From IMG/VR virus record IMGVR_UViG_3300030406_001084, positions 14,689 to 40,094 of that record: a stretch of DNA of 25,406 nt; one strand, given 5' to 3'. The notes beneath the pieces are model-generated. The model did no database searches. It was not told where the DNA came from and worked only from the letters and a program-made list of their open reading frames with translations. Of the stretch, positions 3,694-15,747 are shown one piece after another. This DNA is from a virus. The position numbers and the translations under genes were made by a program. How positions within the stretch are numbered: position 1 is the stretch's first letter; every line of letters starts with the position of its first letter.

Positions 3694-4014
3694 ATGGCTA
3701 TGCCCCTTAACGAAATGCCCAGCCGTTTAGATCAAATGAGAGATGAAGCTAGTAACCCAATGATGGGTGGGCCAATGCCTCCAGCACCGATGCCTCCTGC
3801 TGCAGAACCTCCTGCTGCTGATCGTATGGGCGAACTTTTAGCTGCATTAGGGGGGGAAGATGAGAGGATGTCCCCCGAACCCGCAATGGAAGAAAGCCCT
3901 ATGGTTATCGGTAGTGCGTTAGCTCAAGCTGCTGTAGAAAACACGGGTTCTGTCGCAGAAGCAAAAGCATCTCTTGAAGTTGCTTTAGCTGAATTAGAAG
4001 CTATATCAGCTTAA
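3694..4014 (+). CDS. Small Pro/Met/Ala-rich protein, probably late gene product
   Basis: The start at 3694 has AAGGA at 3682-3686, seven bases upstream and inside the end of the preceding gene, so the two are probably co-translated. The 106-aa product opens with MAMPLNEMPSRLDQMRDEAS, then a Met/Pro-rich linker (residues 20-45), an acidic segment, and an Ala/Glu/Leu-rich C-terminal helix. It has no Cys and no recognised motif. Small Pro/Met-rich proteins directly after tail-region genes are common in marine phages. The function is unknown to me and a minor virion role is a guess from position. Its last nine bases overlap the convergent helicase gene. Confidence 0.7.
   Translation: MAMPLNEMPSRLDQMRDEASNPMMGGPMPPAPMPPAAEPPAADRMGELLAALGGEDERMSPEPAMEESPMVIGSALAQAAVENTGSVAEAKASLEVALAELEAISA
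3998..4012. other. Short hairpin at the convergent gene junction
   Basis: AAGCT-ATATC-AGCTT is a perfect five-base-pair stem at the 3' ends of the convergent genes ending at 4014 (plus) and 4006 (minus). On the plus strand a T run follows seven bases later. It is weak as an intrinsic terminator, but it is the only candidate at this junction. Confidence 0.35.
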
Positions 4015-5451
4015 CCAGTTTTTCCATTTTTCATCGCCTAAAACTTCTTGGGCGAGGTCAAGTTTATTACGCAAAGCTGTTACAATCTTTTCGTCTATCG
4101 TATCTTTAGCTACTAAATCAACATAAGTAACTTTGTTGACTTGTCCGATACGATGGGCGCGATCTTCTGATTGCAAACGTTTTTCTAAATCAAAACTGTT
4201 TGAGTAATAGATTACATTCTGTGCTTCGGTAAGGGTGATACCATAGCCTCCTGTTTGTGTATTACCTACGAAAAACCGTAACGGTGACTCAGGGTCTTGG
4301 AACTGTTTAATCGCTAACTCTCGTTCATCTGTATCAGTATCCCCAAAATAACTAGCTACTGCATCAGCTCCAAATAAACCTTGTAACGTTTCTACAATCT
4401 CTAAAATATTTTGTCGATAGTTTGCCCAGATAATAATCTTGCCCTGCATTTCCCCTATAACTTCTATTAGCTCGTCAATCCTGTTACTCTCTACAGGGGT
4501 CTCTGTTCCGTCATCGCTTTTTACATGGCCACATACGATCTGATGCAGCCTTAACAGTTGTGTGAGTATATTCGTAACACTTATTGTTTCTTTATTCTCA
4601 AGCTCAGTAATCGCTAGTTCTTTTAGTTCAGAGTACAGTTTCTTCTGTTCCGCTGTAAGAGTGACATCTCTCCGTATATACAGTTTATCCGGTAGGTCTA
4701 GGCAATCCTTTTTTAGTACCCTATAAGAGAACGTATCTAGTCTCTTAGTAAGTTCTTCTAGGTTCCTATACCCTACTACCTGTCTAACGGTACGGCCCCC
4801 AAAATAGCGATTTACGACCTCTCCGAAGTGGTTCTGAAAAGAATAAAACGACGTATACCCTAACATCGCTGGCCCTAGGACTTCTGTCTGACTGTACAAG
4901 TCAAGAGGGGATTTAGTAATCGGTGACCCTGTTAGCAATCTTTTGAACTTAGTGTTCTTAGCTAATTTGACTACAGCTTTCGTTCGTGCTGCTTTCGGGT
5001 TTTTTATCGTTGTAGATTCATCAACCGCGAGTAGTGTCTGGTGTCCTAAGATAAAATTCTCAGTAAACTTAACACCTTTCTTTGTGCTTAAAGCTTCGAC
5101 GTTTATAACGAAGATCTTTAACTTATCTACATTGATATCGAACAACTTCATCAATGCAGCTTTTTCGTCTTTGCGAGGGGCAGGAGACCATACCGCTACA
5201 TGACGGTCGATATATTCAGGCATATGGTCTGGTATCTCTTTAGTAGACCAATTCTTAAATACTCCTTTCGGTGCAATAATAACAGCTGAGTCAATAGCTC
5301 CTTTACCGTACAAGATGCCGATGGTGTCTATAAGAACTTTAGACTTACCTGTTCCCATCTCCATAAAAAGCCCATAAGACTTCTTATTCCAAGAACGGGT
5401 AAGCGCCGTTTTCTGATGCGCAAACGGTTGCGTCTTAAATTCGTACTTCAA
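4006..5451 (-). CDS. SNF2-type (SF2) DNA helicase/translocase
   Basis: The product is 481 aa with a full set of SF2/SNF2 motifs. A Q-motif-like PFAHQ lies at residues 9-13, Walker A MGTGKS at 32-37, and the Walker B/motif II variant VDEST at 143-147, followed by KNPKAARTKA. LLTGSPI is motif III, and RAHRIGQ at 431-437 is the SNF2-signature motif VI. The family couples ATP hydrolysis to translocation on duplex DNA; phage members are probably used in replication restart or recombination. The start is TTG at 5451, supported by GAAAGGAA just upstream on the minus strand and no better ATG. It is the only credible minus-strand gene, convergent with the structural module and divergent from the replication genes. 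The role in this phage is inferred. Confidence 0.93.
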   Translation of the reverse strand: MKYEFKTQPFAHQKTALTRSWNKKSYGLFMEMGTGKSKVLIDTIGILYGKGAIDSAVIIAPKGVFKNWSTKEIPDHMPEYIDRHVAVWSPAPRKDEKAALMKLFDINVDKLKIFVINVEALSTKKGVKFTENFILGHQTLLAVDESTTIKNPKAARTKAVVKLAKNTKFKRLLTGSPITKSPLDLYSQTEVLGPAMLGYTSFYSFQNHFGEVVNRYFGGRTVRQVVGYRNLEELTKRLDTFSYRVLKKDCLDLPDKLYIRRDVTLTAEQKKLYSELKELAITELENKETISVTNILTQLLRLHQIVCGHVKSDDGTETPVESNRIDELIEVIGEMQGKIIIWANYRQNILEIVETLQGLFGADAVASYFGDTDTDERELAIKQFQDPESPLRFFVGNTQTGGYGITLTEAQNVIYYSNSFDLEKRLQSEDRAHRIGQVNKVTYVDLVAKDTIDEKIVTALRNKLDLAQEVLGDEKWKNWLS

Positions 5452-5752: not shown

Positions 5753-6088
5753 ATGACTGTTTATATCGTCCAAGAGGTCTCTGGAAGGAACCTTGTACCC
5801 GCTGCAAAATATGGCGAGTTAAAACCCTTGCTCCCAGCGAAGACTAATCTAATGCTTTCTACAGGCCCAGAAGTAGCTAGGCTCAAAAGAAAGTTAGTTG
5901 ATTTCAACGACGACGATTACCTATTACTTATAGGTGACCCCGCCGCGATCGGATTATGTTGCGCTATAGCAGCATCTATCAATGGTAGATTTTCTGTCCT
6001 CAAATGGGATAGACAGGAGATGACCTATTACCCCGTATCCTTCGATATCCGAGGGAACGCAACGGACTTGGGAGAAGTCTATGTCTGA
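5753..6088 (+). CDS. Conserved phage protein of unknown function, 111 aa
   Basis: This is the first gene of the rightward replication block, with a strong AAAGGAGA ribosome site. The 111-aa product begins MTVYIVQEVSGRNLVPAAKY and contains a hydrophobic core, DDDYLLLIGDPAAIGLCCAIAA, near residues 61-82, then KWDR and a short beta-rich end. I recall similar short proteins with a YxVQExxGRN start and a DPAAIG segment as common in marine phages, without an assigned activity. Position next to replication genes suggests an early role. It is not a membrane protein: the hydrophobic run is short and holds charged neighbours. Function unknown. Confidence 0.75.
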   Translation: MTVYIVQEVSGRNLVPAAKYGELKPLLPAKTNLMLSTGPEVARLKRKLVDFNDDDYLLLIGDPAAIGLCCAIAASINGRFSVLKWDRQEMTYYPVSFDIRGNATDLGEVYV

Positions 6089-6659
6089 AGAAGAAAACGC
6101 TTTGTCGTTCGAAGAACTGACGGGTGCAGCCTCGCAAGAGGAATGGAACGAAACGACGCTCGACAGTGAGTATCGAAAGATAAGTTCTATAGCTCAACAG
6201 TTACAAAAACTGCAAGAGGAAGTTAAGGAAACAGAACTGTTATTACATGCACAAAAAGAAGCCTTACGCATGTACGAAGAACAAGCTCTACCCGAGGCGA
6301 TGCAAGCAGCTAACCTCAGAGAGATTGTATTGACCAACGGTTCAAAAATTACCGTAAACGAATTCTATAAAGGGTATATCTCTGAAAAGAATCGCGAAGC
6401 AGCACACGCATGGCTTTTATCTAATAATCATGGCGGCATTATCAAACACGAAGTATCTCTTAAGTTCGGTAAGGACGAAGGAGAAAAAGCGCAAGACGCC
6501 GTGCAAAGTCTTAAACAGAAAGGGTTAGACCCTGCTGTTAAAGAGAGTGTTCATCCACAAACGCTTAACGCATTCGTGAAAGAACAACTGACGAGTGGGA
6601 AAGACCTTCCTGCTGAACTATTCGGGGTTTACGTCGGATCCCGCGCCAAACTTAAGTAG
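6081..6659 (+). CDS. Coiled-coil protein upstream of SSB-like gene, 192 aa
   Basis: The start at 6081 overlaps the previous gene by eight bases and has GGGAGA upstream, suggesting translational coupling. The N-terminal 20 residues are acidic. A heptad-like helix then runs from about residue 34 to 75 (IAQQLQKLQEEVKETELLLH and on), and the C-terminal half is mixed and lysine-rich. The shape recalls Gam-type DNA-end-binding proteins, which pair a long coiled coil with a small globular part, but I see no decisive motif. Its place directly before an SSB-like protein and a primase makes a replication or recombination accessory role reasonable. Function not established. Confidence 0.7.
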   Translation: MSEEENALSFEELTGAASQEEWNETTLDSEYRKISSIAQQLQKLQEEVKETELLLHAQKEALRMYEEQALPEAMQAANLREIVLTNGSKITVNEFYKGYISEKNREAAHAWLLSNNHGGIIKHEVSLKFGKDEGEKAQDAVQSLKQKGLDPAVKESVHPQTLNAFVKEQLTSGKDLPAELFGVYVGSRAKLK

Positions 6660-6667
6660 AGGTACCT

Positions 6668-7456
6668 ATGGCTGATAAGAAAGTAGCAGAAGCGACAGCT
6701 TCTGATTTAATCCCCTTCGATGACGATTTGTTATCTGCAGGGACTGGTTTAGAAGAAGCGAGTGCAGATGACTATGCGATTCCGTTTTTACGAGTGTTGC
6801 AATCAATGTCCCCGCAACTTAAGAAAAGTGACGGTAAATATATTCAAGGTGCTGAAGAAGGCAACTTGTTTAACACTGTTACTGAAACTGTTTACGATGG
6901 AACGGAAGGCGTCGTACTCATACCTTGTGCGTATAAGAAAAAGTTTATCGAATGGATTACAAGAGAAAACGGAGGAGGTTTTGTTGACGATAGCCACCCT
7001 GCTACGATTCTTAAATCGTGTAAGAAAGATGATAGCGGGAGATTTATCTTAGAAAACGGTAATCAGATTTCTGAAACTGCAGAGTATTACTGTATCGTCG
7101 CGCAAGACGAGAATGCACCAGAGCAAGTTTTACTCAGTCTTACTTCTTCGCAACTAGGGTTTTCCAGACGCTGGAATACGATGCTTAACAACGCTCGCGT
7201 ACAAAATGCGAAAGGAGAGACTGTCCCTGCCCCTATGTTTTCGTATATGTACAACCTTACGACTATCCCTCAGTCTAACGACCAATATAGCTGGATGGGA
7301 TTATCTGTAGAAAAAAGTAGACCTACACCTATGCCACTTGCGGTAGCTGCGTTGGAGTTTATGAAAGCAGCTCGTTCAGGCGATGTCGAGGTAAGACAAG
7401 AGCAAGAGGGAGTAAACGCATCTTCTGATGTGGGAGAGGAAGAAGTACCGTTTTAG
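6668..7456 (+). CDS. Probable phage single-stranded DNA-binding protein
   Basis: The 262-aa product has a mixed beta-rich body. Its disordered, acidic C-terminal tail (from about residue 238) ends GEEEVPF. An acidic tail with a terminal Pro-Phe is the hallmark of bacterial SSB (DDDIPF), used to dock replication partners; phage SSBs such as T7 gp2.5 have a comparable acidic tail ending in Phe. Aromatic residues (Trp, Tyr, Phe) are frequent in the body, consistent with base stacking. The gene lies directly before primase and helicase. I infer a role in coating ssDNA; there is no clear OB-fold signature by eye, so the family is not certain. The start has AGAGGT upstream. Confidence 0.7.
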   Translation: MADKKVAEATASDLIPFDDDLLSAGTGLEEASADDYAIPFLRVLQSMSPQLKKSDGKYIQGAEEGNLFNTVTETVYDGTEGVVLIPCAYKKKFIEWITRENGGGFVDDSHPATILKSCKKDDSGRFILENGNQISETAEYYCIVAQDENAPEQVLLSLTSSQLGFSRRWNTMLNNARVQNAKGETVPAPMFSYMYNLTTIPQSNDQYSWMGLSVEKSRPTPMPLAVAALEFMKAARSGDVEVRQEQEGVNASSDVGEEEVPF

Positions 7457-7473: not shown

Positions 7474-8997
7474 ATGTCGTTAGAAGAGGAGTTTGCCCAC
7501 CGTTTCGCGGGGTTGAGACACGGTTATAGTGTCTTTACCCCGACGAAAGAAAAACGGGAAGATGGGAAAGCAAAAGGAAAATATGTAACCATTTCACAAA
7601 CTCTCAACCAGAAAGAACTACAAGCTGTGTGGAGAGAGCACTTAAGAGGAGATAAAGGATTAGGGATAGTCCCTATTGACGAAAACAATACTTGTGTTTG
7701 GGGTGCAATAGATATTGACGAATTTAGCGTAGACCTAAAAGGGCTGGCTAAAAAACTAAAACAGTTTAAATTACCACTTGTCGTTACTCGTTCTAAGAGT
7801 GGGGGAGCGCATGTATTTTTATTCGTATTTGACCCAGTACCAGCATCGAGTATGCAAAGGAAGTTACGTCAGATAGCAGCAGCGATTGGGTTCGGACAAT
7901 CAGAGATATTTCCTAAACAGACTAAATTATTGTTAGAAAGAGGGGACAGGGGAAGTTCTCTTAATATGCCGTATTTCGGTGGCGAGGACTCCACTGGATA
8001 CGGGTTTAGTGCAACAGGTAAAGTGCTCAGCCCAAAAGAGTTCATTGAGTACGTTGATGGTCTTGTACTAACAGAAGAAGAATTAGAAAAGCTGGAGGTT
8101 ACTCCAGTCTTAGAGGAGTTAGAGTGGATGGATCAAGCACCGCCGTGTCTTGAACATCTAATAGCTCAAGGGTTCCCTAAAGGAATGAGGAACTCAGGTC
8201 TGTTTAACGTTGGGGTTTTTCTTAGAAAGAAATATCCAGATGATTGGGAGCCTAGATTAGAGGACGCGAACCATAAACACTTTAACCCGCCACTAAGTGC
8301 GCAAGAAGTTTTAACCGTAACGAAACAAGTACAAAAGAAAGATTACTTTTATAAATGCAATGACCAACCAATAGCTGGACATTGCAATAGCCCGTTATGT
8401 AGAACGAAGAAATTTGGTATCGGTGCTTCTGGGGGTACTCCTTTATTTAGTAATCTTACAAAACAAAATAGTGACCCACCAATCTGGTTCTTAGATGTTG
8501 AGGGGGGTAGGTTAGAACTTGAGACTGAAGAACTGTTAAACCAAACGCGGTTCCAACGAAAGTGTATGGACAGCCTTAATATTATCCCTCCGAAAGTACG
8601 GGATAACGTATGGCGCACAATTATACAGCAGCTTCTCGATACGCTGACGATTATCGAAGTACCGAAAGATGCTTCGACAGAAGGTCACTTTAACGAACTC
8701 CTAGAGACTTTTTGTACAGAACGTCCAGCTAGGGAACGGGACGAGTTACTGTTAGGTAAACCTTGGACAGATAACGAAAGAACTTATTTTCGTTTAGCTG
8801 ACCTGATGGACTTTTTACATCGTAAAAACTTTAGGGATTACCCGCGCAATAAACTTACGGCTAAGTTGAAAAATATGGGAGGAGACTCTCACTTTTTTAA
8901 TATTAAAGGTAAGGGTGCGAATGTCTGGCATATACCAGAGTTTCAGGCGCAAACTGAGTCACACACGTTGCCTGAGTTTAACGACTCCCCGCTATGA
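7474..8997 (+). CDS. Archaeo-eukaryotic-type primase, TOTE-like
   Basis: The 507-aa product carries AEP primase motifs in order. GAIDIDEF (residues 78-84) supplies the metal-binding Asp pair DxD, SKSGGAHVFLF (107-117) matches the nucleotide-binding SGGxH strand, and SEIFPKQT (143-150) and SLNMPYFGG (162-170) follow. This arrangement matches the primase domain described for TOTE conflict systems. A Cys/His cluster near residues 294-310 (CNDQPIAGHCNSPLC) could bind zinc. The remaining 200 residues resemble a helical PriCT-type C-terminal region. It would make primers for the polymerase encoded at 13885. It ends in an ATGA overlap with the UvrD-like helicase, so the two are probably translated together. 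The ribosome site is AAGGTGA. Confidence 0.85.
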   Translation: MSLEEEFAHRFAGLRHGYSVFTPTKEKREDGKAKGKYVTISQTLNQKELQAVWREHLRGDKGLGIVPIDENNTCVWGAIDIDEFSVDLKGLAKKLKQFKLPLVVTRSKSGGAHVFLFVFDPVPASSMQRKLRQIAAAIGFGQSEIFPKQTKLLLERGDRGSSLNMPYFGGEDSTGYGFSATGKVLSPKEFIEYVDGLVLTEEELEKLEVTPVLEELEWMDQAPPCLEHLIAQGFPKGMRNSGLFNVGVFLRKKYPDDWEPRLEDANHKHFNPPLSAQEVLTVTKQVQKKDYFYKCNDQPIAGHCNSPLCRTKKFGIGASGGTPLFSNLTKQNSDPPIWFLDVEGGRLELETEELLNQTRFQRKCMDSLNIIPPKVRDNVWRTIIQQLLDTLTIIEVPKDASTEGHFNELLETFCTERPARERDELLLGKPWTDNERTYFRLADLMDFLHRKNFRDYPRNKLTAKLKNMGGDSHFFNIKGKGANVWHIPEFQAQTESHTLPEFNDSPL

Positions 8998-10490
8998 CAT
9001 TAAAGTCAGATGCACAAATAATCCTTGGGCCTCCTGGAACTGGAAAAACCAGTACCTTGTTAGGTTTGTTAGAAGAAGAACTAGACCGAGGAACGTGCCC
9101 AGAAGATATAGGTTTCTTCACATTTACTAAACAAGCGGTACAAGAGGGAAAGAGCCGAGCGATGTCTCGGTTTGCGATAGCTAATAACCAACTACCGTAT
9201 TTTAGAACGCTGCATTCACTTTGTTTCTTTCAATTAGGGCTGAGTAAAGAAAGCGTATTTTCTGCTTCAGATTTTAGAGACCTTAATGACAAATTAAATC
9301 TACGACTGACAGGATCAATCAACTCTGAAGAGGGGCATGTCTCTGGGATATCTAAAGACGACCGACTACTATTTATCGAAAACTTATCTCGTATGAGGCA
9401 AGTTAGTTTAGAAAGCCAGTGGCATGACTCTGATGACGTGGTCGGTTGGTTTGAGTTAGAACGATTCTCTCGAGGATTAGAACTGTTTAAGAAAGACAGG
9501 ATGCTAATCGACTATACCGATATGTTGAACTTATTTCTGACTAGAGGTAGAGCACCGAAGTTAGATGTAATGTTCGTAGATGAAGCGCAAGACTTGTCTC
9601 CGCTACAGTGGGCGGTAGTTAGAAAACTCTGTGAGTCTGCAGATAGGATTTATATCGCCGGTGATGATGACCAAGCTATCTACCGCTGGGCTGGCGCAGA
9701 CGTTGATTACTTGATCCGTAATTCAAAAGATGCGATGGTTCTCAAACAGTCCTACAGAATCCCTAAATCTATTCATAACCTTGCCGAGCGTTGTATAGGA
9801 CAGGTTGGGGCGCGAGTACATAAAACTTGGAACCCTAGAAAAGAAGAAGGACACGTTTCTTGGGAACCGTCTTATGAATCTATAGATATGGAAAGCGGTG
9901 AGTGGTTAGTGCTTGCTAGAACAAATTACTTACTAAACGGTATTGAAGAACACTGTCGTTCGGAAGGATGGTTCTATAAAAACAAAAATAGACCTAGCGT
10001 TTCCGAAAAGAAGATCATGGCAGTGAGGGCTTGGGAGAATTTTAGGAAGGGCGGTCTTATACCAATCATAGAACTTACCAAAGTCTTAAATTATTTAAAG
10101 ATTCGGGTACCTAGTTCCCTCGAGATGATCGACTTTGATACTAATGTTTCTTTCGAACAAGCTAAAAAATACGTTCCTAGGTTGGTAAACGAATATTGGT
10201 ACGACGCTTTCGTAGGTGTATCAGTATCTGAACGAAGTTATATCCGAGCGATGCTTAGAAGAGGAGAAAAGATTACTAAAGAGCCAAGAATCAAACTATC
10301 AACTATTCATGCTGCTAAGGGAGGGGAGGCAGAAAATGTAATTTTGCTTACCGATATCTCTAACAGAATTTATAAATCGTTCCAAAGTAATCCTGACGAT
10401 GAGTCAAGAGTGTTTTACGTTGGATTAACAAGAGCAAAGGAGAACTTATTTTTAATTGAACCACAAACTCAAAAGTATTTCCCGCTTTAG
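8994..10490 (+). CDS. UvrD/PcrA-like superfamily 1 helicase
   Basis: The 498-aa product has a complete SF1A set. Walker A GPPGTGKT is at residues 12-19, motif Ia FTFTKQA at 42-48, motif II VDEAQD at 195-200 and motif III GDDDQAIYRWAGA at 223-235. Motif IV is LKQSYRIP, motif V LSTIHAAKGGEAENV, and motif VI VFYVGLTRAKENL near the end. These enzymes unwind DNA 3' to 5'. It is shorter than cellular UvrD (about 720 aa), mainly through a reduced 2B region. The start codon overlaps the primase stop (ATGA), implying coupled synthesis and probably a joint task at the fork. Assignment is firm; in vivo role inferred. Confidence 0.95.
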   Translation: MTLKSDAQIILGPPGTGKTSTLLGLLEEELDRGTCPEDIGFFTFTKQAVQEGKSRAMSRFAIANNQLPYFRTLHSLCFFQLGLSKESVFSASDFRDLNDKLNLRLTGSINSEEGHVSGISKDDRLLFIENLSRMRQVSLESQWHDSDDVVGWFELERFSRGLELFKKDRMLIDYTDMLNLFLTRGRAPKLDVMFVDEAQDLSPLQWAVVRKLCESADRIYIAGDDDQAIYRWAGADVDYLIRNSKDAMVLKQSYRIPKSIHNLAERCIGQVGARVHKTWNPRKEEGHVSWEPSYESIDMESGEWLVLARTNYLLNGIEEHCRSEGWFYKNKNRPSVSEKKIMAVRAWENFRKGGLIPIIELTKVLNYLKIRVPSSLEMIDFDTNVSFEQAKKYVPRLVNEYWYDAFVGVSVSERSYIRAMLRRGEKITKEPRIKLSTIHAAKGGEAENVILLTDISNRIYKSFQSNPDDESRVFYVGLTRAKENLFLIEPQTQKYFPL

Positions 10491-10543
10491 TCCTTTACTT
10501 TCAAAAAGGCGCTAAGGTAAAGTAGTAATCCGTAGAAAGGAGA
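10491..10543 (+). promoter_or_regulatory. Box-hairpin-RBS leader element, copy B
   Basis: CTTTACTTTC (10493-10502) begins right after the helicase stop. CTTTAC at 10493-10498 is matched by GTAAAG at 10517-10522. TAAAGT follows 18 bases after TTTACT. AGAAAGGAGA precedes the ATG at 10549. This is probably a promoter for the base-modification block. Confidence 0.55.
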
Positions 10544-10548
10544 AACAA

Positions 10549-11403
10549 ATGGCATCTATAAGAAAGAAGCTAGAAGTAAATGTAAATAATAGCAAGAACA
10601 CCCGCATGGATATTGCAAGCGGGAATATGCTAGGTAATTGGCGACCCGATGAAATAACTCATATGACGAGGTATGACAAAATATCTTCGTTATGTATTGA
10701 AGAAGCTAACAAGTTCAATAGACCTATAGATGTACTTGAAGCAGGGTGTGGAGAGATCTGGGTTTTAAGAAACTTGTATAAAGCATATACGGTTAAAAAG
10801 TCAGACATTATTCATTCTTATCGGGGGGTCGATATTGACCCTGCATGCTTACAAGAAAAACAAGGGTATAGCAGCCCGACAGGATTAGTTGAAGACTCGA
10901 CTTGGTTTGCTAATTTTAACGGCAAGATAGATATTCAAGACTTAACTATAAACCCTGTATTCGATTTACCTGACGAATCCATAGATTTCTTCTGGACTAC
11001 AGAAGTAATAGAACATATGAACCGAGAGTTCATCGCTCCATGGTTAGAAGACGCTAATAGAGTTTTACGTCCAGGAGGATTGATTTACGTTTCTACTCCA
11101 AACCACGACGGTTCTAATGATAAGTTACCTGAAGACCATATTTACGAGTGGGGGTTTGAAGAACTTAAAGAAGAACTCAGCAGTCGTTGGGAACTGCAAT
11201 CAGTCGTTGGTACGTTCTGCCAGATGCCTAAGCTCAAAAAAGCTATGGCAAAAGACAACCGTGAATCTGAGTGGAAATGGCACCCTGATCAGTTCAAGCT
11301 TTTACAAGAGCGGTACGGTAAACAATTCTTACGAGTAGTTGCTGCGACGTTCTATCCAGAAGTATCTAATAATTGTGCATGGATACTAAGAAAGCCTAAA
11401 TGA
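10549..11403 (+). CDS. Class I SAM-dependent methyltransferase
   Basis: The 284-aa product shows the Rossmann methyltransferase pattern. Motif I is DVLEAGCGEIW (about residues 62-72), an acidic strand end follows in RGVDIDPAC, then FDLPDESIDFFWTTEVIEHM and a post-motif LRPGGLIYVSTPNHDG. The EVIEHM and LRPGG segments are typical of type 11/12 methyltransferases rather than adenine- or cytosine-C5 DNA methylases: no DPPY or PC motif is visible. The substrate is unknown. It opens the block that holds an aGPT-pyrophosphorylase-like protein and a ThyA-fold enzyme, so a modified nucleotide or base is a reasonable guess but unproven. Its stop overlaps the next start (ATGA). It has its own box-hairpin leader. 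Confidence 0.88.
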   Translation: MASIRKKLEVNVNNSKNTRMDIASGNMLGNWRPDEITHMTRYDKISSLCIEEANKFNRPIDVLEAGCGEIWVLRNLYKAYTVKKSDIIHSYRGVDIDPACLQEKQGYSSPTGLVEDSTWFANFNGKIDIQDLTINPVFDLPDESIDFFWTTEVIEHMNREFIAPWLEDANRVLRPGGLIYVSTPNHDGSNDKLPEDHIYEWGFEELKEELSSRWELQSVVGTFCQMPKLKKAMAKDNRESEWKWHPDQFKLLQERYGKQFLRVVAATFYPEVSNNCAWILRKPK

Positions 11404-12305
11404 CAAACTTTATCGCTGCAGAGGTAGATCGTTACGTCTATTGGATAGAGGAACGGGAACGTATACGTCATCTAAAAGAGGAGGTTCAACAAGAACCTCC
11501 TTGGACAGAAGACCCAATACTTCGAGAGTTTAAGTTCTGCCAAGTATTCCGAGAAGACGACAGAACTACGCGCTGGTTCCGACATTATATAAGAGAACCG
11601 TTAAGAAACGATCCCGAAGTATTTATGGCAACCGTCGCGTTTAGATTTTTTAATCTTATTGAGACGGGAGAAACTTTACTCGACCACAACTTGCATATCG
11701 AATGGGATCGAGAAAAGGCTATCGAAGAAATTAAAAAGCAAAACAAGTGGATTACTGGGGCGTATATCGTAAAAAGTCCTAATCGTATGGATAAAGTTAC
11801 AGGAGTAGCTGAATGCGTCTCGCATATCTGGGCTGAACGTGATCGAATATTAAAAGATTTCTCTCATCTCAAATCTTTATGTGATGCGTGGAATTACTTA
11901 CTGAGGTTTCCATATATTGGGCCGTTCGTTTCTTACGAAATGGTTACGGATTTACGACACACACATTTATTAGAAAACGCAGAAGATATTTTCTCATGGG
12001 CTAACGCTGGTCCAGGAGCGATGAGAGGATTAAATAGACTTACAGGGAGACCTTTAGAGTTTTGCAAACGTAGTTGGGACTGGAACAGTGAGATGCAAGC
12101 GTTGTATCAGTGGTGTATAGAACGCCTCGACTTAAATAAGTTTCATAGACCTTTTGAGATGCGGGAGATAGAAGGCGGTCTATGTGAGTTCGATAAGTAT
12201 TCTCGAATACTACACGGACAAGGTCGAACACGGAGCGTTTATGACTACTCACAAAAAGATCGACCGTTAATTAAAGAGTATGAGAGGAAGAATGGGAAAA
12301 CTTAA
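11400..12305 (+). CDS. Putative aGPT-pyrophosphorylase/HMUDK-helical-type thymine modification protein
   Basis: The 301-aa product has the features I associate with the alpha-glutamyl/putrescinyl thymine pyrophosphorylase superfamily (later members are called amino acid:DNA transferases), which includes the helical domain of 5-hmdU DNA kinases. FKFCQVFREDDRTTRWF (residues 44-60) corresponds to the family's F-x-N/C-x-x-R-x-x-D-R signature. LRFPYIGPFVSYEMVTDL (168-185) resembles a helix-hairpin-helix. GPGAMRGLNRL (204-214) and LCEFDKYSRILHGQGRTR (261-278) match the remaining conserved blocks. Known relatives act on pyrophosphorylated 5-hydroxymethyluracil in phage DNA. There is no P-loop, so this is not a full kinase. 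It sits between a methyltransferase and a ThyA-fold enzyme, overlapping the former by ATGA. Assignment is from memory of family motifs: good but not certain. Confidence 0.72.
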   Translation: MTNFIAAEVDRYVYWIEERERIRHLKEEVQQEPPWTEDPILREFKFCQVFREDDRTTRWFRHYIREPLRNDPEVFMATVAFRFFNLIETGETLLDHNLHIEWDREKAIEEIKKQNKWITGAYIVKSPNRMDKVTGVAECVSHIWAERDRILKDFSHLKSLCDAWNYLLRFPYIGPFVSYEMVTDLRHTHLLENAEDIFSWANAGPGAMRGLNRLTGRPLEFCKRSWDWNSEMQALYQWCIERLDLNKFHRPFEMREIEGGLCEFDKYSRILHGQGRTRSVYDYSQKDRPLIKEYERKNGKT

Positions 12306-12531
12306 ACAACTAATTATAGATTTAGAAAACTCAGATATAGATTTCGTAATGACGTGTTACGGGTCATTCTTACAATATTGTGTGAAAAATAAACGTGTTC
12401 CTAATACTTGGCGGGATGCGATCGACGCGATTCATTGGTCAGCGTATTTAGCAGGAAAAATACACTTAAACCGTTTGCAGATCGAACATATCCTCACATT
12501 GCAAACGGAGAGCCTTTATGAAAGTGATTGA
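12292..12531 (+). CDS. Small helical protein in the modification block
   Basis: I prefer the ATG at 12292, inside the end of the preceding gene, with AGAGGA close upstream; an in-frame ATG at 12280 would add four residues. The product is about 79 aa, helical, with KLKQLIIDLENSDIDFVM at the start and a WRDAIDAIHWSAYLAGKI segment in the middle. It ends 14 bases after the ThyA-fold gene begins, so all three genes look translationally linked. There is no recognised domain. It may be an accessory to the modification enzymes, judged only from its location. Confidence 0.6.
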   Translation: MGKLKQLIIDLENSDIDFVMTCYGSFLQYCVKNKRVPNTWRDAIDAIHWSAYLAGKIHLNRLQIEHILTLQTESLYESD

Positions 12532-13588
12532 CGTAAGGAACGTTAACCAAGCGTTTATGTGGGGGGTAGATTTATTTAACTCAGACGTTAATTACCGAGA
12601 ACAAGAAAGCCGCAACGGGCCGACTAGAGAGATCCTCACCCCTGTTACAACGATATATTCTCACCCTTGGCAGAGAGTGTTATTTCGTGAAGAACGAGAC
12701 GCTAATCCTTTCTTTCATTTATATGAGTCAATATGGATGTTAGCGGGTTCTCGTAATCTACAGAAGCTGACACATTTCAACGCAGGGATGGCTAACTTTT
12801 CTGATGACAACGAGACCTTGAATGGCTCGTACGGATATCGTTGGAGATATCAGTTTGCGCATGATCAGTTAATTAGTGTGATCGATATGCTTAAAAGAGA
12901 TCCTGATTCCCGTCGAGTAGTCTTACAGATGTGGGATGCTGTTTATGATCTTGACAGCCCAAGTAAAGACATCCCCTGCAACACTAATATCTATTTCAAG
13001 ATCAGAGACAACAAGTTACAGATGACGGTCTGTAATAGATCGAACGATATGATTTGGGGAGCCTACGGTGCGAACGCAGTCCATATGTCTGTGTTACAAG
13101 AATACATCGCGGCGACTCTAGGGCTAGAGATGGGGCCGTATTATCAGATAAGTGATAGCTTCCATATTTATCTCAATAAAGAGTGGGACAAAGTAAAACA
13201 TATCGACGGGGTAGATTTTTATGATCGTCAATATTGGAATGCAATGGGATATCCCGAGCCACATTATCCCCTCGTTACTGAGGGACAGGCTGATAATTTT
13301 ATAAAAGAGTGCGAACAGTTTTTATTTTCTATCCCGCCTCGACGTGTTGCTGGTAATCCAGAACTTGTAAACGATTGGCCTAATATGTTTGGAGCAAGTG
13401 GGTATACGAACAAGTTTTTCCCTGACGTCATGATCCCGATGACCCATGCCTATCTAAAGCATAAGGAACGGAAGTATGAAGATTGCTACAAATATCTCGG
13501 AGAGATTAAAGCAGTTGATTGGCAGCAAGCCTGTTTTACTTGGGTCAAACGACGAGAACGTAATTGGAGAAATAAAAATGGGTCTTGA
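12518..13588 (+). CDS. Thymidylate-synthase-fold enzyme, possibly dUMP hydroxymethylase
   Basis: The 356-aa product aligns with ThyA through the core. Glu70 in FFHLYESIWMLAG is equivalent to E. coli Glu58. GSYGYRWR binds like GPVYGKQWR. DSRRVVLQMW supplies the phosphate-binding arginines. Cys154 in DIPCNTNIYF is the nucleophile. Arg174/Ser175/Asp177 in NRSND match RSCD, Asn186 in GANAV matches the dUMP-selecting Asn177, and His216/Tyr218 in DSFHIYLN match HLY. Unusually, the region equivalent to the Trp80 segment (TIWDEW) has no tryptophan; it reads AGMANFSDDNE (residues 89-99). The tail after about residue 260 is also atypical. Retained Asn implies a uracil substrate. A lost Trp and the neighbouring modification gene suggest hydroxymethylation rather than methylation, which is inference. 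A divergent thymidylate synthase remains possible. Confidence 0.9.
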   Translation: MKVIDVRNVNQAFMWGVDLFNSDVNYREQESRNGPTREILTPVTTIYSHPWQRVLFREERDANPFFHLYESIWMLAGSRNLQKLTHFNAGMANFSDDNETLNGSYGYRWRYQFAHDQLISVIDMLKRDPDSRRVVLQMWDAVYDLDSPSKDIPCNTNIYFKIRDNKLQMTVCNRSNDMIWGAYGANAVHMSVLQEYIAATLGLEMGPYYQISDSFHIYLNKEWDKVKHIDGVDFYDRQYWNAMGYPEPHYPLVTEGQADNFIKECEQFLFSIPPRRVAGNPELVNDWPNMFGASGYTNKFFPDVMIPMTHAYLKHKERKYEDCYKYLGEIKAVDWQQACFTWVKRRERNWRNKNGS

Positions 13589-13910
13589 TGTTAAGTGGAC
13601 GGAGATGAAAGATATCGCCCAGCAAGACATTGTAAGCTTGATCGAATCAGAAAAGTCTTACGGAGATTCATGGAAACGTAGAGGGGGTACGGGAGCTTTT
13701 ATGATGCTCGCCCGTAAGTTCGACCGGATCGAACAACAAGCCGAATCTTGTAATTACGACGTATTCGAAGCAGGAGCTAAGTTCAACGGAGAAGATGGAT
13801 TACTCGACGATATTGGAGACCTTAGACGATATTTGTTTTTAGTAGAGCACCACATTCGATACGGTATACAGGATATTGACCCAGATGCAGATACCACTGA
13901 TTCAGCCTGA
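13578..13910 (+). CDS. Probable nucleotide-modification-associated (Nmad1/DUF1599-like) protein
   Basis: The start at 13578 has GGAGA upstream; longer frame extensions lack a ribosome site and sit inside the ThyA-fold gene. The product is 110 aa and helical, with KSYGDSWKRRGGTGAFMMLA at about residues 26-45, then RKFDRIEQQ and an acidic C-terminal helix, LLDDIGDLRRYLFLVEHHIR. The YGDSW plus metal-pair-like acidic helices resemble DUF1599, named Nucleotide modification associated domain 1, with a MazG-like helical shape. That name fits its place after the ThyA-fold enzyme. I am moderately sure of the family. A nucleotide pyrophosphohydrolase-like activity would be an inference. Confidence 0.65.
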   Translation: MGLDVKWTEMKDIAQQDIVSLIESEKSYGDSWKRRGGTGAFMMLARKFDRIEQQAESCNYDVFEAGAKFNGEDGLLDDIGDLRRYLFLVEHHIRYGIQDIDPDADTTDSA

Positions 13911-15747
13911 GAGCGATTGGGTCGCCCCTGATATATTGCCACGTTTCGATCCTAACGAAACGTTAGCTGTTGACTTAGAAACTTACGATCCGAATCTGAA
14001 TAACCGTGGTCCAGGATGGGCTACAGGTGACGGGTACGTCGTAGGTGTAGCTATAGCATCAGATAGTTGGTCAGGGTATTTACCGATCAGGCATGAGAAC
14101 GGCGGTAATTTAGAAGAGGAAATAGTCTTACGTTGGCTAAAAAGAACGTTTGAAAATCATAAAGGTACGATGGTTTTCCATAATTCACTTTATGATGTAG
14201 GGTGGCTAAAACGTGAAGGAATAAACTTAACTTGTCCTCTCCGCGATACGATGTTTGCGGCCCCGTTATTTGACGAAAACCGTTGGTCGTATTCTTTAAA
14301 TAATCTCGGTATGGATTTTTTAGGAGAAACTAAAGACGAGACATTACTTGAGATGGCTGCTAAAGCATGGGGCGTAAATGCAAAAAGCGGGATGTGGTCT
14401 CTCCCTGCTAAATATGTTGGGCCATACGCTGAACAAGATGCAGTAATGACTCTTAAGTTATGGAAGATATTTAAAAAGAGGATCGAGATAGAAGGATTAC
14501 AAAAGATTTTCGACCTCGAATGTGACCTAATACCTTTACTGATCGAGATGCGATGGAGAGGTGTTCGGATCGACACAGCTAAAGCAGAGAAAGCTTCGGA
14601 GCAGATGTCGAAGAAAGAACAACAGTTGCTCGTAGAAATAAAACGTAAATTCGGAACGTCGATCGATATTTGGGCGAGCGCGTCGATACAAAAAGCATTC
14701 GACGCTAACGGAATCTGGTATCCCCATACAGCGAAAGGTGCGCCTAGTTTCCAAGGCCCGTGGTTAGAATCTCACGAACATGAACTACCGAAGATGATCG
14801 TAGAAGCTCGTAGAATTAATAAAGCTCGAACTACGTTTATCGAGGGAGCAATTTTAGAATACTCACATAACGGTCGGATACATGCTGAAGCGCACCCGTT
14901 AAAGAATGATGGTGGGGGTACAGTGACGGGTCGGTTTAGTTATTCCAACCCAAACTTACAACAGATCCCTGCTCGAGACCCACAGATCGGTAAGATGATC
15001 AGGTCGTTATTTATCCCAGAAGAAGGAGCAACGTGGGGTATTTTCGATTACTCTCAGCAAGAGCCTAGGATTACGGTGCATTATTCGTCATTACTCGGAC
15101 TTCCAGGAGCAGCTGATGCAGTCAATGCTTACTCTAACGAAGGTGCTGACTTCCACCAGATCGTAGCAGATATGGCAGGGATACCTAGGAAACAAGCTAA
15201 AGACATTAATCTCGGGCTGACTTACGGGATGGGTAGAGAGAAGTTGATTAGAGAGTTAGGGCTAGAGCAAGATGAAGCTGCTAGATTGTTAGAGGTTTAC
15301 CATGCGAGAGTTCCTTTCGTTCGAGCAATACAAGATAGGTGTACTCGGACTGCGCAAGATCGAGGATACATAACGACACTTGCGGGTCGGAAGTGTCATT
15401 TTGATTTATGGGAACCAGTAGGATATTTAGCCGACGAAAAGAAAACACCGTTACCTGAACGAGAAGCTCGAGACCAATACGGAGATAACCTTAAACGGTC
15501 TTTTACATATAAGGCTTTAAATAAACTAATCCAAGGATCAGCTGCGGATATGACGAAGTTAGCGATGCGGGAGCTGTGGAAAGAGGGGATGGTACCGCAT
15601 ATACAAATTCATGATGAACTAGATTTTTCAATATTTAATAAAGAACAGTCGGAGATAGTAATAGATAAAATGGTCAACTGTGTCGATATGAGAGTACCAC
15701 TGGTAGTAGATTACGAATCAGGAGATAACTGGGGAGAAGCGGTATGA
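13885..15747 (+). CDS. polA: Family A DNA polymerase with 3'-5' exonuclease, Leu762 type
   Basis: The 620-aa product lacks a 5'-3' exonuclease domain, as usual for phage enzymes. The proofreading domain is intact: AVDLETYD (Exo I, about residues 28-35), VFHNSLYDVGWL (Exo II) and YAEQDAVMTL (Exo III). The polymerase domain has TVTGRFSYSNPNLQQIP, motif A IFDYSQQEPR (near 386), motif B with Arg435, Lys439, Leu443, Tyr447 and Gly448, and motif C IHDELD with His576-Asp577-Glu578. Leu443 aligns with E. coli Phe762, a site known to vary in marine viral polymerases and to affect speed and ddNTP selection. ATG 13885 is preferred over TTG 13876 because AGGA lies 11 bases upstream of it. The gene overlaps the previous one by 26 bases and the next by ATGA. 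Confidence 0.97.
   Translation: MQIPLIQPESDWVAPDILPRFDPNETLAVDLETYDPNLNNRGPGWATGDGYVVGVAIASDSWSGYLPIRHENGGNLEEEIVLRWLKRTFENHKGTMVFHNSLYDVGWLKREGINLTCPLRDTMFAAPLFDENRWSYSLNNLGMDFLGETKDETLLEMAAKAWGVNAKSGMWSLPAKYVGPYAEQDAVMTLKLWKIFKKRIEIEGLQKIFDLECDLIPLLIEMRWRGVRIDTAKAEKASEQMSKKEQQLLVEIKRKFGTSIDIWASASIQKAFDANGIWYPHTAKGAPSFQGPWLESHEHELPKMIVEARRINKARTTFIEGAILEYSHNGRIHAEAHPLKNDGGGTVTGRFSYSNPNLQQIPARDPQIGKMIRSLFIPEEGATWGIFDYSQQEPRITVHYSSLLGLPGAADAVNAYSNEGADFHQIVADMAGIPRKQAKDINLGLTYGMGREKLIRELGLEQDEAARLLEVYHARVPFVRAIQDRCTRTAQDRGYITTLAGRKCHFDLWEPVGYLADEKKTPLPEREARDQYGDNLKRSFTYKALNKLIQGSAADMTKLAMRELWKEGMVPHIQIHDELDFSIFNKEQSEIVIDKMVNCVDMRVPLVVDYESGDNWGEAV

Follow-up and report, generated by a model that had tools for sequence, protein, structure and literature searches.

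A conserved methyltransferase where other phages carry known finishing enzymes: a candidate thymine-modification cassette of HTVC023P-type phages

The viral record IMGVR_UViG_3300030406_001084 of IMG/VR contains a compact block of five genes, which an earlier note made from the DNA letters had put forward as a cassette for thymine hypermodification. The block lies within the 25,406-base stretch analysed here (positions 14,689 to 40,094 of the record, C1:14689-40094), referred to below as the window. It encodes a class I methyltransferase dependent on S-adenosylmethionine (SAM), termed MT, a helical protein of the HMUDK_hel/aGPT-Pplase1 family, termed HEL, a putative ThyA-fold pyrimidine hydroxymethylase, termed ThyA, and two further conserved proteins. 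MT is part of this module, since it was found with HEL in 142 related loci, and it stands where other phages encode the enzymes known to finish 5-hydroxymethyl-2'-deoxyuridine (5-hmdU) in DNA, namely 5-hmdU kinase with an amino acid:DNA transferase (ADDT), or a TET-associated glycosyltransferase (TAGT). We give an about even chance to the reading that the block serves to modify thymine after replication, with MT replacing these finishing enzymes and methylating the hydroxymethyl group of 5-hmdU.

The five open reading frames (ORFs) were found where the earlier note had placed them on the + strand, each overlapping the next (10549-11403, 11400-12305, 12280-12531, 12518-13588, and 13476-13910). 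MT (10549..11403, +; 284 aa) combines a Rossmann fold with an invariant glycine-rich SAM motif, E64-x-G66-C67-G68-E69, and matches Methyltransf_23 (2.7e-10) and Methyltransf_11 (3.6e-8); gene 1 is thus a SAM methyltransferase as proposed, and of its suggested type 11/12 assignment the first half holds, Methyltransf_12 falling below its cut-off. HEL (11400..12305, +; 301 aa) is a homologue of M6 gp55 and PaMx11 gp50, and a profile search bore out its predicted identity as an aGPT-pyrophosphorylase/HMUDK-helical protein, with a PF18723 match at 3.5e-45 (155 bits against a curated cut-off of 25, spanning profile positions 4-278 of 281) and a phrog_2396 match at 2e-58. The three blocks quoted for this protein, FKFCQVFREDDR, GPGAMRGLNRL and CEFDKY, are all present, and 36 homologues show little or no variation at most of these positions. 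ThyA (12518..13588, +; 356 aa), whose fold had also been correctly recognized, matches phrog_5131 (9e-106) and PF00303 (5.2e-24), is ∼41% identical to M6 gp58, and has as its best PDB match the CMP hydroxymethylase MilA, above true thymidylate synthases. The catalytic Cys and the uracil-type Asn (C146 and N177 in E. coli numbering) are kept in 138/138 ThyA proteins of the MT group, the Asn being shared with M6 and PaMx11, and the same Asn is found in HEL-linked ThyA proteins from loci with TAGT (72/72), with kinase/ADDT (6/6), or with none of these enzymes (7/7). Proteins similar to the window's ThyA occur in 1,396 of 50,697 phage records (∼2.8%). These features strongly suggest that the window's ThyA is a dUMP hydroxymethylase of the M6 type that would make 5-hydroxymethyl-dUMP, and together with HEL they uphold the proposal of a thymine-modification cassette.

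The association of MT with this block is extensive. When loci were scored with hidden Markov models (HMMs) built for this analysis, all 142 MT loci contained HEL, 140 contained ThyA, and 135 contained the fifth protein. Many contigs entered this set twice, so that the distinct MT proteins number 82 and the distinct MT-HEL junctions 89, which makes the group a common one in marine metagenomes. The MT and HEL genes overlap or abut in most loci (by an ORF-based count), and viral-contig searches with HEL and with MT gave overlapping sets. MT is under purifying selection, with dN/dS values of ∼0.04-0.07 against those relatives for which dS could be estimated, similar to those of HEL and ThyA. Relatives of MT in bacterial genomes were confined to three contigs and are uninformative on function; the only close one (L363; 55% identical) lies on a 5.2-kb contig in a Maricaulis metagenome-assembled genome and is possibly a hint of the host or a binning error.

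The earlier note was correct that the window contains no 5-hmdU kinase, and this absence extends to 27 long related contigs carrying MT (51-84 kb), in which neither the kinase family PF18748 nor the ADDT family PF18724 was detected. TAGT (PF20691) was likewise absent from these 27 contigs, from G000, and from the outgroup G028, and was present in four HEL records without MT. A search of nine related genomes for a diverged kinase, using an unfiltered HMM of three kinases and two Walker-A patterns, returned UvrD as the only plausible protein with a classical P-loop pattern, and no relatives of the M6 and PaMx11 kinase, ADDT, pyridoxal phosphate (PLP), radical SAM, FAD, or acetyltransferase proteins were found in nine genomes. 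The outgroup G028 (L064), whose HEL is 38% identical, served as a positive control and matched both PF18748 and PF18724; its kinase match, which lies below the curated cut-off, was confirmed against the PaMx11 kinase (1.5e-28), and the genome carries an M6-like set of kinase, ADDT, PLP, and radical SAM genes. Incompleteness of the contigs is an unlikely cause of the missing kinase and ADDT, because most of the 27 approach or exceed complete relatives in length (57.6-60.9 kb), though it could still hold for any single contig.

Across 234 scored HEL loci, MT (142 loci), TAGT (73 loci), and kinase/ADDT (7 loci, M6 and PaMx11 included) never occur together, and ThyA is nearly constant; several of the 12 loci that carry none of these classes are short or edge fragments. 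A second HEL search, seeded with an L068-type sequence, added 79 loci to the set, and TAGT and ThyA are present in 69 of these. HEL is therefore not tied to the 5-hmdU kinase, as it is found with MT or TAGT in loci without one, and its occurrence without a recognizable kinase raises the question of what aGPT-Pplase1/HMUDK_hel proteins do. The earlier note had called the pairing with a methyltransferase unusual, which these counts support, and the pathway partial or novel; because MT is fixed in the group and mutually exclusive with kinase/transferase and TAGT, the evidence leans toward a distinct variant rather than a partial pathway.

The TAGT loci L068 and L070, together with most of L285-L345, form a large marine group with HEL, uracil-type ThyA, and TAGT but without kinase; L068 and L070 have the same neighbouring genes, and the gene content of the group suggests glycosylated 5-hmdU. 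A further set of HEL loci (L066:4762-6482, L065, and L076) encodes a protein of cluster c72, possibly a fourth class of decorating enzyme; L066 also has a weak match to sulfotransferases next to ThyA.

Evidence on the acceptor of the methyl group comes from distant relatives of MT. Among the 50,697 phage records, such relatives occur in four phages only, at 25-29% identity, and in all four a gene for a ThyA-fold hydroxymethylase follows a short way downstream of the homologue, in genomes that also encode a MazG-like NTP pyrophosphatase, a P-loop kinase-like protein, and a dCMP deaminase. This type is represented by the cultured Stenotrophomonas phage AXL3. Of 37 restriction enzymes, only two digested its DNA, and the sites of both consist of A/T only; in that 2020 paper the authors suggested altered G/C nucleotides without naming a base (PMC7504290). 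Apart from its hydroxymethylase, AXL3 encodes ThyX for dTMP, and no glycosyltransferase was recognized among the eight of its hypothetical proteins that were scanned. A viral-contig search returned 84 AXL3-type MT loci, 70 of which have ThyA nearby and none of which has HEL; among the 14 without ThyA, five have fewer than 600 bases of sequence downstream. The ThyA proteins of this type carry Asp in 69/69 cases (the cytosine type), as in MilA. Beyond the SAM core, the two methyltransferase types also share the related motifs STPNHDG and STPCYDG and the C-terminal NNCAWILRK and NNLWVCRK. Since the MT family is found with hydroxymethylases of both base types and without a common third partner, it would most simply act on the hydroxymethyl group itself.

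On this basis, a three-step route can be proposed. The ThyA-fold enzyme would first convert dUMP to 5-hydroxymethyl-dUMP, which would enter DNA as 5-hmdU and substitute for thymine in part or completely, a step for which the inference is strong. HEL would then engage the 5-hmdU of the DNA, with base flipping as the probable mode, and would do so whichever finishing enzyme is present, as suggested by its gene company and by its fold, which resembles those of a phage glycinyltransferase and of Ogg DNA glycosylases (described below). Lastly, MT may use SAM to methylate the hydroxymethyl side chain, probably on oxygen; the simplest product would be 5-methoxymethyl-dU, formed with no involvement of 5-hmdU kinase, ADDT, or TAGT. 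The nearest solved folds to the AlphaFold model of MT (pLDDT 82.8) are mostly small-molecule methyltransferases such as AtmM, TleD, and RebM, several of them O-methyltransferases. The first 28 residues of MT are conserved and predicted by the model to be disordered, possibly forming a partner-binding stretch. As to the exact product, 5-methoxymethyl-dU is a tentative proposal whose chances we place somewhat below even. Equally tentative is the wider picture in which a family of hydroxymethyl O-methyltransferases makes a new base, 5-methoxymethyl-2'-deoxyuridine here and 5-methoxymethyl-2'-deoxycytidine in the AXL3 type, and in which HEL is a general 5-hmdU handling factor serving three interchangeable routes, one by methylation, one by glycosylation, and one by phosphorylation combined with amino-acid transfer.

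Several points weigh against the proposed methylation of 5-hmdU. For every phage of the group, the presence of a modified base is predicted from genes, and the methyl acceptor is deduced from the neighbours of MT, which could instead target a nucleotide, RNA, or protein. The identity between MT and the AXL3 type is low, at just 25-29%, and nine of the 84 AXL3-type loci have no ThyA despite several kb of downstream sequence. The AXL3 type is also without HEL, so that the role of HEL in a methyl route is left unexplained. Finally, the HEL sequences linked to MT form a single clade (support 0.91), which indicates that the link arose once within the group, as one acquisition that was kept rather than repeated.

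The alternative that survives best, which we nevertheless consider unlikely, is that HEL is itself a transferase that adds a small group to 5-hmdU without a separate kinase, and that MT methylates the carboxylate, amine, or hydroxyl of that group. The predicted structure of HEL is all helical (pLDDT 93.2), and its top solved fold is 8z2n (Foldseek probability 0.99, E 0.05, TM 0.45-0.48), the 5-phosphomethyl-dU (5-PmdU) glycinyltransferase PUGT, which is PaMx11 gp46, followed by archaeal Ogg glycosylases. The many invariant acidic and basic residues of HEL among the 36 homologues would fit a catalytic role, and the highest TM-score in the fold list of MT belongs to the E. coli methyltransferase 4htf, which corresponds to CmoM, an enzyme methylating a side chain on C5 of a tRNA uridine. 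A sequence relationship between HEL and ADDT was considered and set aside: HEL matched PF18723 only and not the ADDT/PUGT family PF18724, a sequence search of solved structures gave nothing significant, and the direct profile comparison was too weak (P 0.02-0.04, the first alignment covering 25 columns at P 0.04), so that the link rests on fold. In a larger, still weak alignment, GPF/GPW and E-[IV]-E-x-x-L-C motifs fall in register in the two families, a point in favour of a transferase. Against it, HEL also accompanies TAGT glycosyltransferases, for which no such group is needed, and the AXL3-type methyltransferase occurs without HEL.

Methylation of the hydroxymethyl group would also be wrong if MT were not a DNA-base enzyme at all. 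Its target would then be a nucleotide, RNA, protein, or host factor, MT would merely be co-transcribed with its neighbours, and the end product of the cassette would be plain 5-hmdU, which does occur in phages such as SP8 (PMC6449724). Methyltransf_23/11 is a very broad class and MT matched no DNA-methyltransferase family in a Pfam profile search, both of which suit this explanation. We judge it improbable all the same, as the MT family is found with hydroxymethylases in two settings (the uracil type with HEL and the cytosine type without it) and never with TAGT or kinase/ADDT.

Ordinary nucleotide metabolism, with ThyA acting as a normal thymidylate synthase and the DNA unmodified, is more doubtful still. 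The matched families are annotated as thymidylate synthase and the uracil-type Asn is also that of the true synthase, but every ThyA member lacks W80, a trait shared with M6 and PaMx11, and has N in place of H147; the solved structure that matches best is MilA rather than a thymidylate synthase, and HEL, its partner, is a protein of hypermodification loci. The presence of HEL and ThyA without kinase and ADDT could also mean that an M6-type pathway has decayed or is incomplete and relies on the kinase of a host or co-infecting phage, but this is very improbable given that the cassette genes are intact and under purifying selection across wide divergence, that the absence of kinase/ADDT is uniform in 27 contigs mostly near the size of complete relatives, and that a dedicated MT occupies the place of these enzymes.

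Upstream of the block, a Shine-Dalgarno-like AAAGGAG read from the sequence (10536..10542, +) lies 6 bases 5' of the MT start codon. The small third protein (12280..12531, +), which in most related loci has a homologue flanked by HEL and ThyA, probably starts at 12292 (MGKLKQ...), judging from its relatives, and had no convincing family match in Pfam and phrogs profile searches. The fifth protein (13476..13910, +), with a probable start at 13578 by the same comparison, contains the conserved motifs SYGDSWKRRGGxGAFMMLARKFDRIE and LLDDIxDLRRYL and gave no match in a Pfam search. Its earlier label as Nmad1-like was not borne out, as neither 24 members of the family nor 11 genomes gave a match to Nmad1 (DUF1599, PF07659) at E<=10. 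The protein is common to the MT and TAGT groups (135/142 and 69/73 loci) and may have a role in 5-hmdU metabolism.

The five genes sit between a UvrD-like helicase (8994..10490, +; PF00580 5.4e-28, also picked up by the Walker-A scans) and a family A DNA polymerase (PolA; 13876..15747, +; PF00476 1.3e-60). The polymerase is 48-52% identical to those of the Pelagibacter phages HTVC023P and HTVC027P, the environmental genome 023Pt_psg01, and DSL-LC04, and this closest match together with the kept primase-UvrD-PolA order places the window in the HTVC023P-type lineage. In these four relatives, 0-3 small genes separate UvrD from the PolA gene downstream, which argues that the block was gained or lost as one piece. 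The 40,094-base record also holds tail and lysis genes in its left part; it is probably incomplete, since end repeats are absent and no large terminase, portal, or capsid gene was seen in it.

Elsewhere in the window, an SNF2-type helicase gene (4006-5451, -) between the structural and replication genes is conserved in 119 loci, three successive genes (5753-7456) match Pfam families named for gp32, gp33, and gp34 of cyanophage Pam3, a phage that also has HEL and ThyA, and a primase (7474-8997) matches the TOTE-type archaeo-eukaryotic primase family. Proteins of cluster c19 (L055:4506-5096, L068:132-719, and others), encoded near UvrD in ∼80 related loci and absent from the window, include a member in L068 that matches 2OG-Fe(II)/AlkB-like oxygenases.

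Among the closest known systems are those for thymidine hypermodification in the Pseudomonas phages M6 and PaMx11, which share with the cassette the ThyA-fold dUMP hydroxymethylase, HMUDK_hel (gp55/gp50), and a position adjoining the family A polymerase. They differ in having a kinase (gp54/gp49), ADDT (gp51/gp46), and tailoring enzymes, of which the window's group has none, carrying MT instead. Through the paper on phage SN1, which maps the older names onto the gene order of M6, aGPT-Pplase1 is equated with HMUDK_hel (M6 gp55) and aGPT-Pplase2 with ADDT (M6 gp51). The glycinyltransferase PUGT is the nearest solved fold to HEL, but the two share no sequence family (ADDT PF18724 versus HEL PF18723).

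HTVC023P-type pelagiphages belong to the same lineage by polymerase and gene order, and a thymidylate synthase and aG/PT-PPlase1 near PolA were described in clades of these phages in 2022 (PMC9599517). The pairing of ThyA with aGPT-Pplase1 is thus already known, whereas the cultured HTVC023P and HTVC027P lack the entire block; the word methyltransferase does not occur in the paper's main text, and the missing kinase and transferase are not discussed in the passages concerned (PMC9599517). The loci with HEL and TAGT (L068, L070, L071, and most of L285-L345) share HEL, uracil-type ThyA, and the fifth protein with the window and differ in having the glycosyltransferase PF20691 in place of MT. The AXL3 module, found in a phage with strongly restriction-resistant DNA, has in common a homologous MT upstream of a ThyA-fold hydroxymethylase, but this enzyme is of the cytosine type and is accompanied by the MazG-like pyrophosphatase and P-loop kinase-like protein, without HEL.

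A methylated hydroxymethyl base is not known to have been reported from phage DNA, and none turned up in a literature search, with key thymidine-hypermodification papers outside its reach. The system belongs with phage 5-hydroxymethyl-pyrimidine modification, and what is new in it is the conserved MT in place of the known finishing enzymes: MT as a member of the module, the absence of kinase, ADDT, and TAGT from 27 contigs, the mutual exclusion of these classes, the cytosine setting of the AXL3 type, and the fold match of HEL. The comparison shows a hydroxymethyl-pyrimidine core whose finishing enzyme varies between phage groups, and it predicts methylation of the hydroxymethyl group as one finishing route, with thymine and cytosine versions, a prediction that can be checked in the cultured phage AXL3 by mass spectrometry of its DNA.

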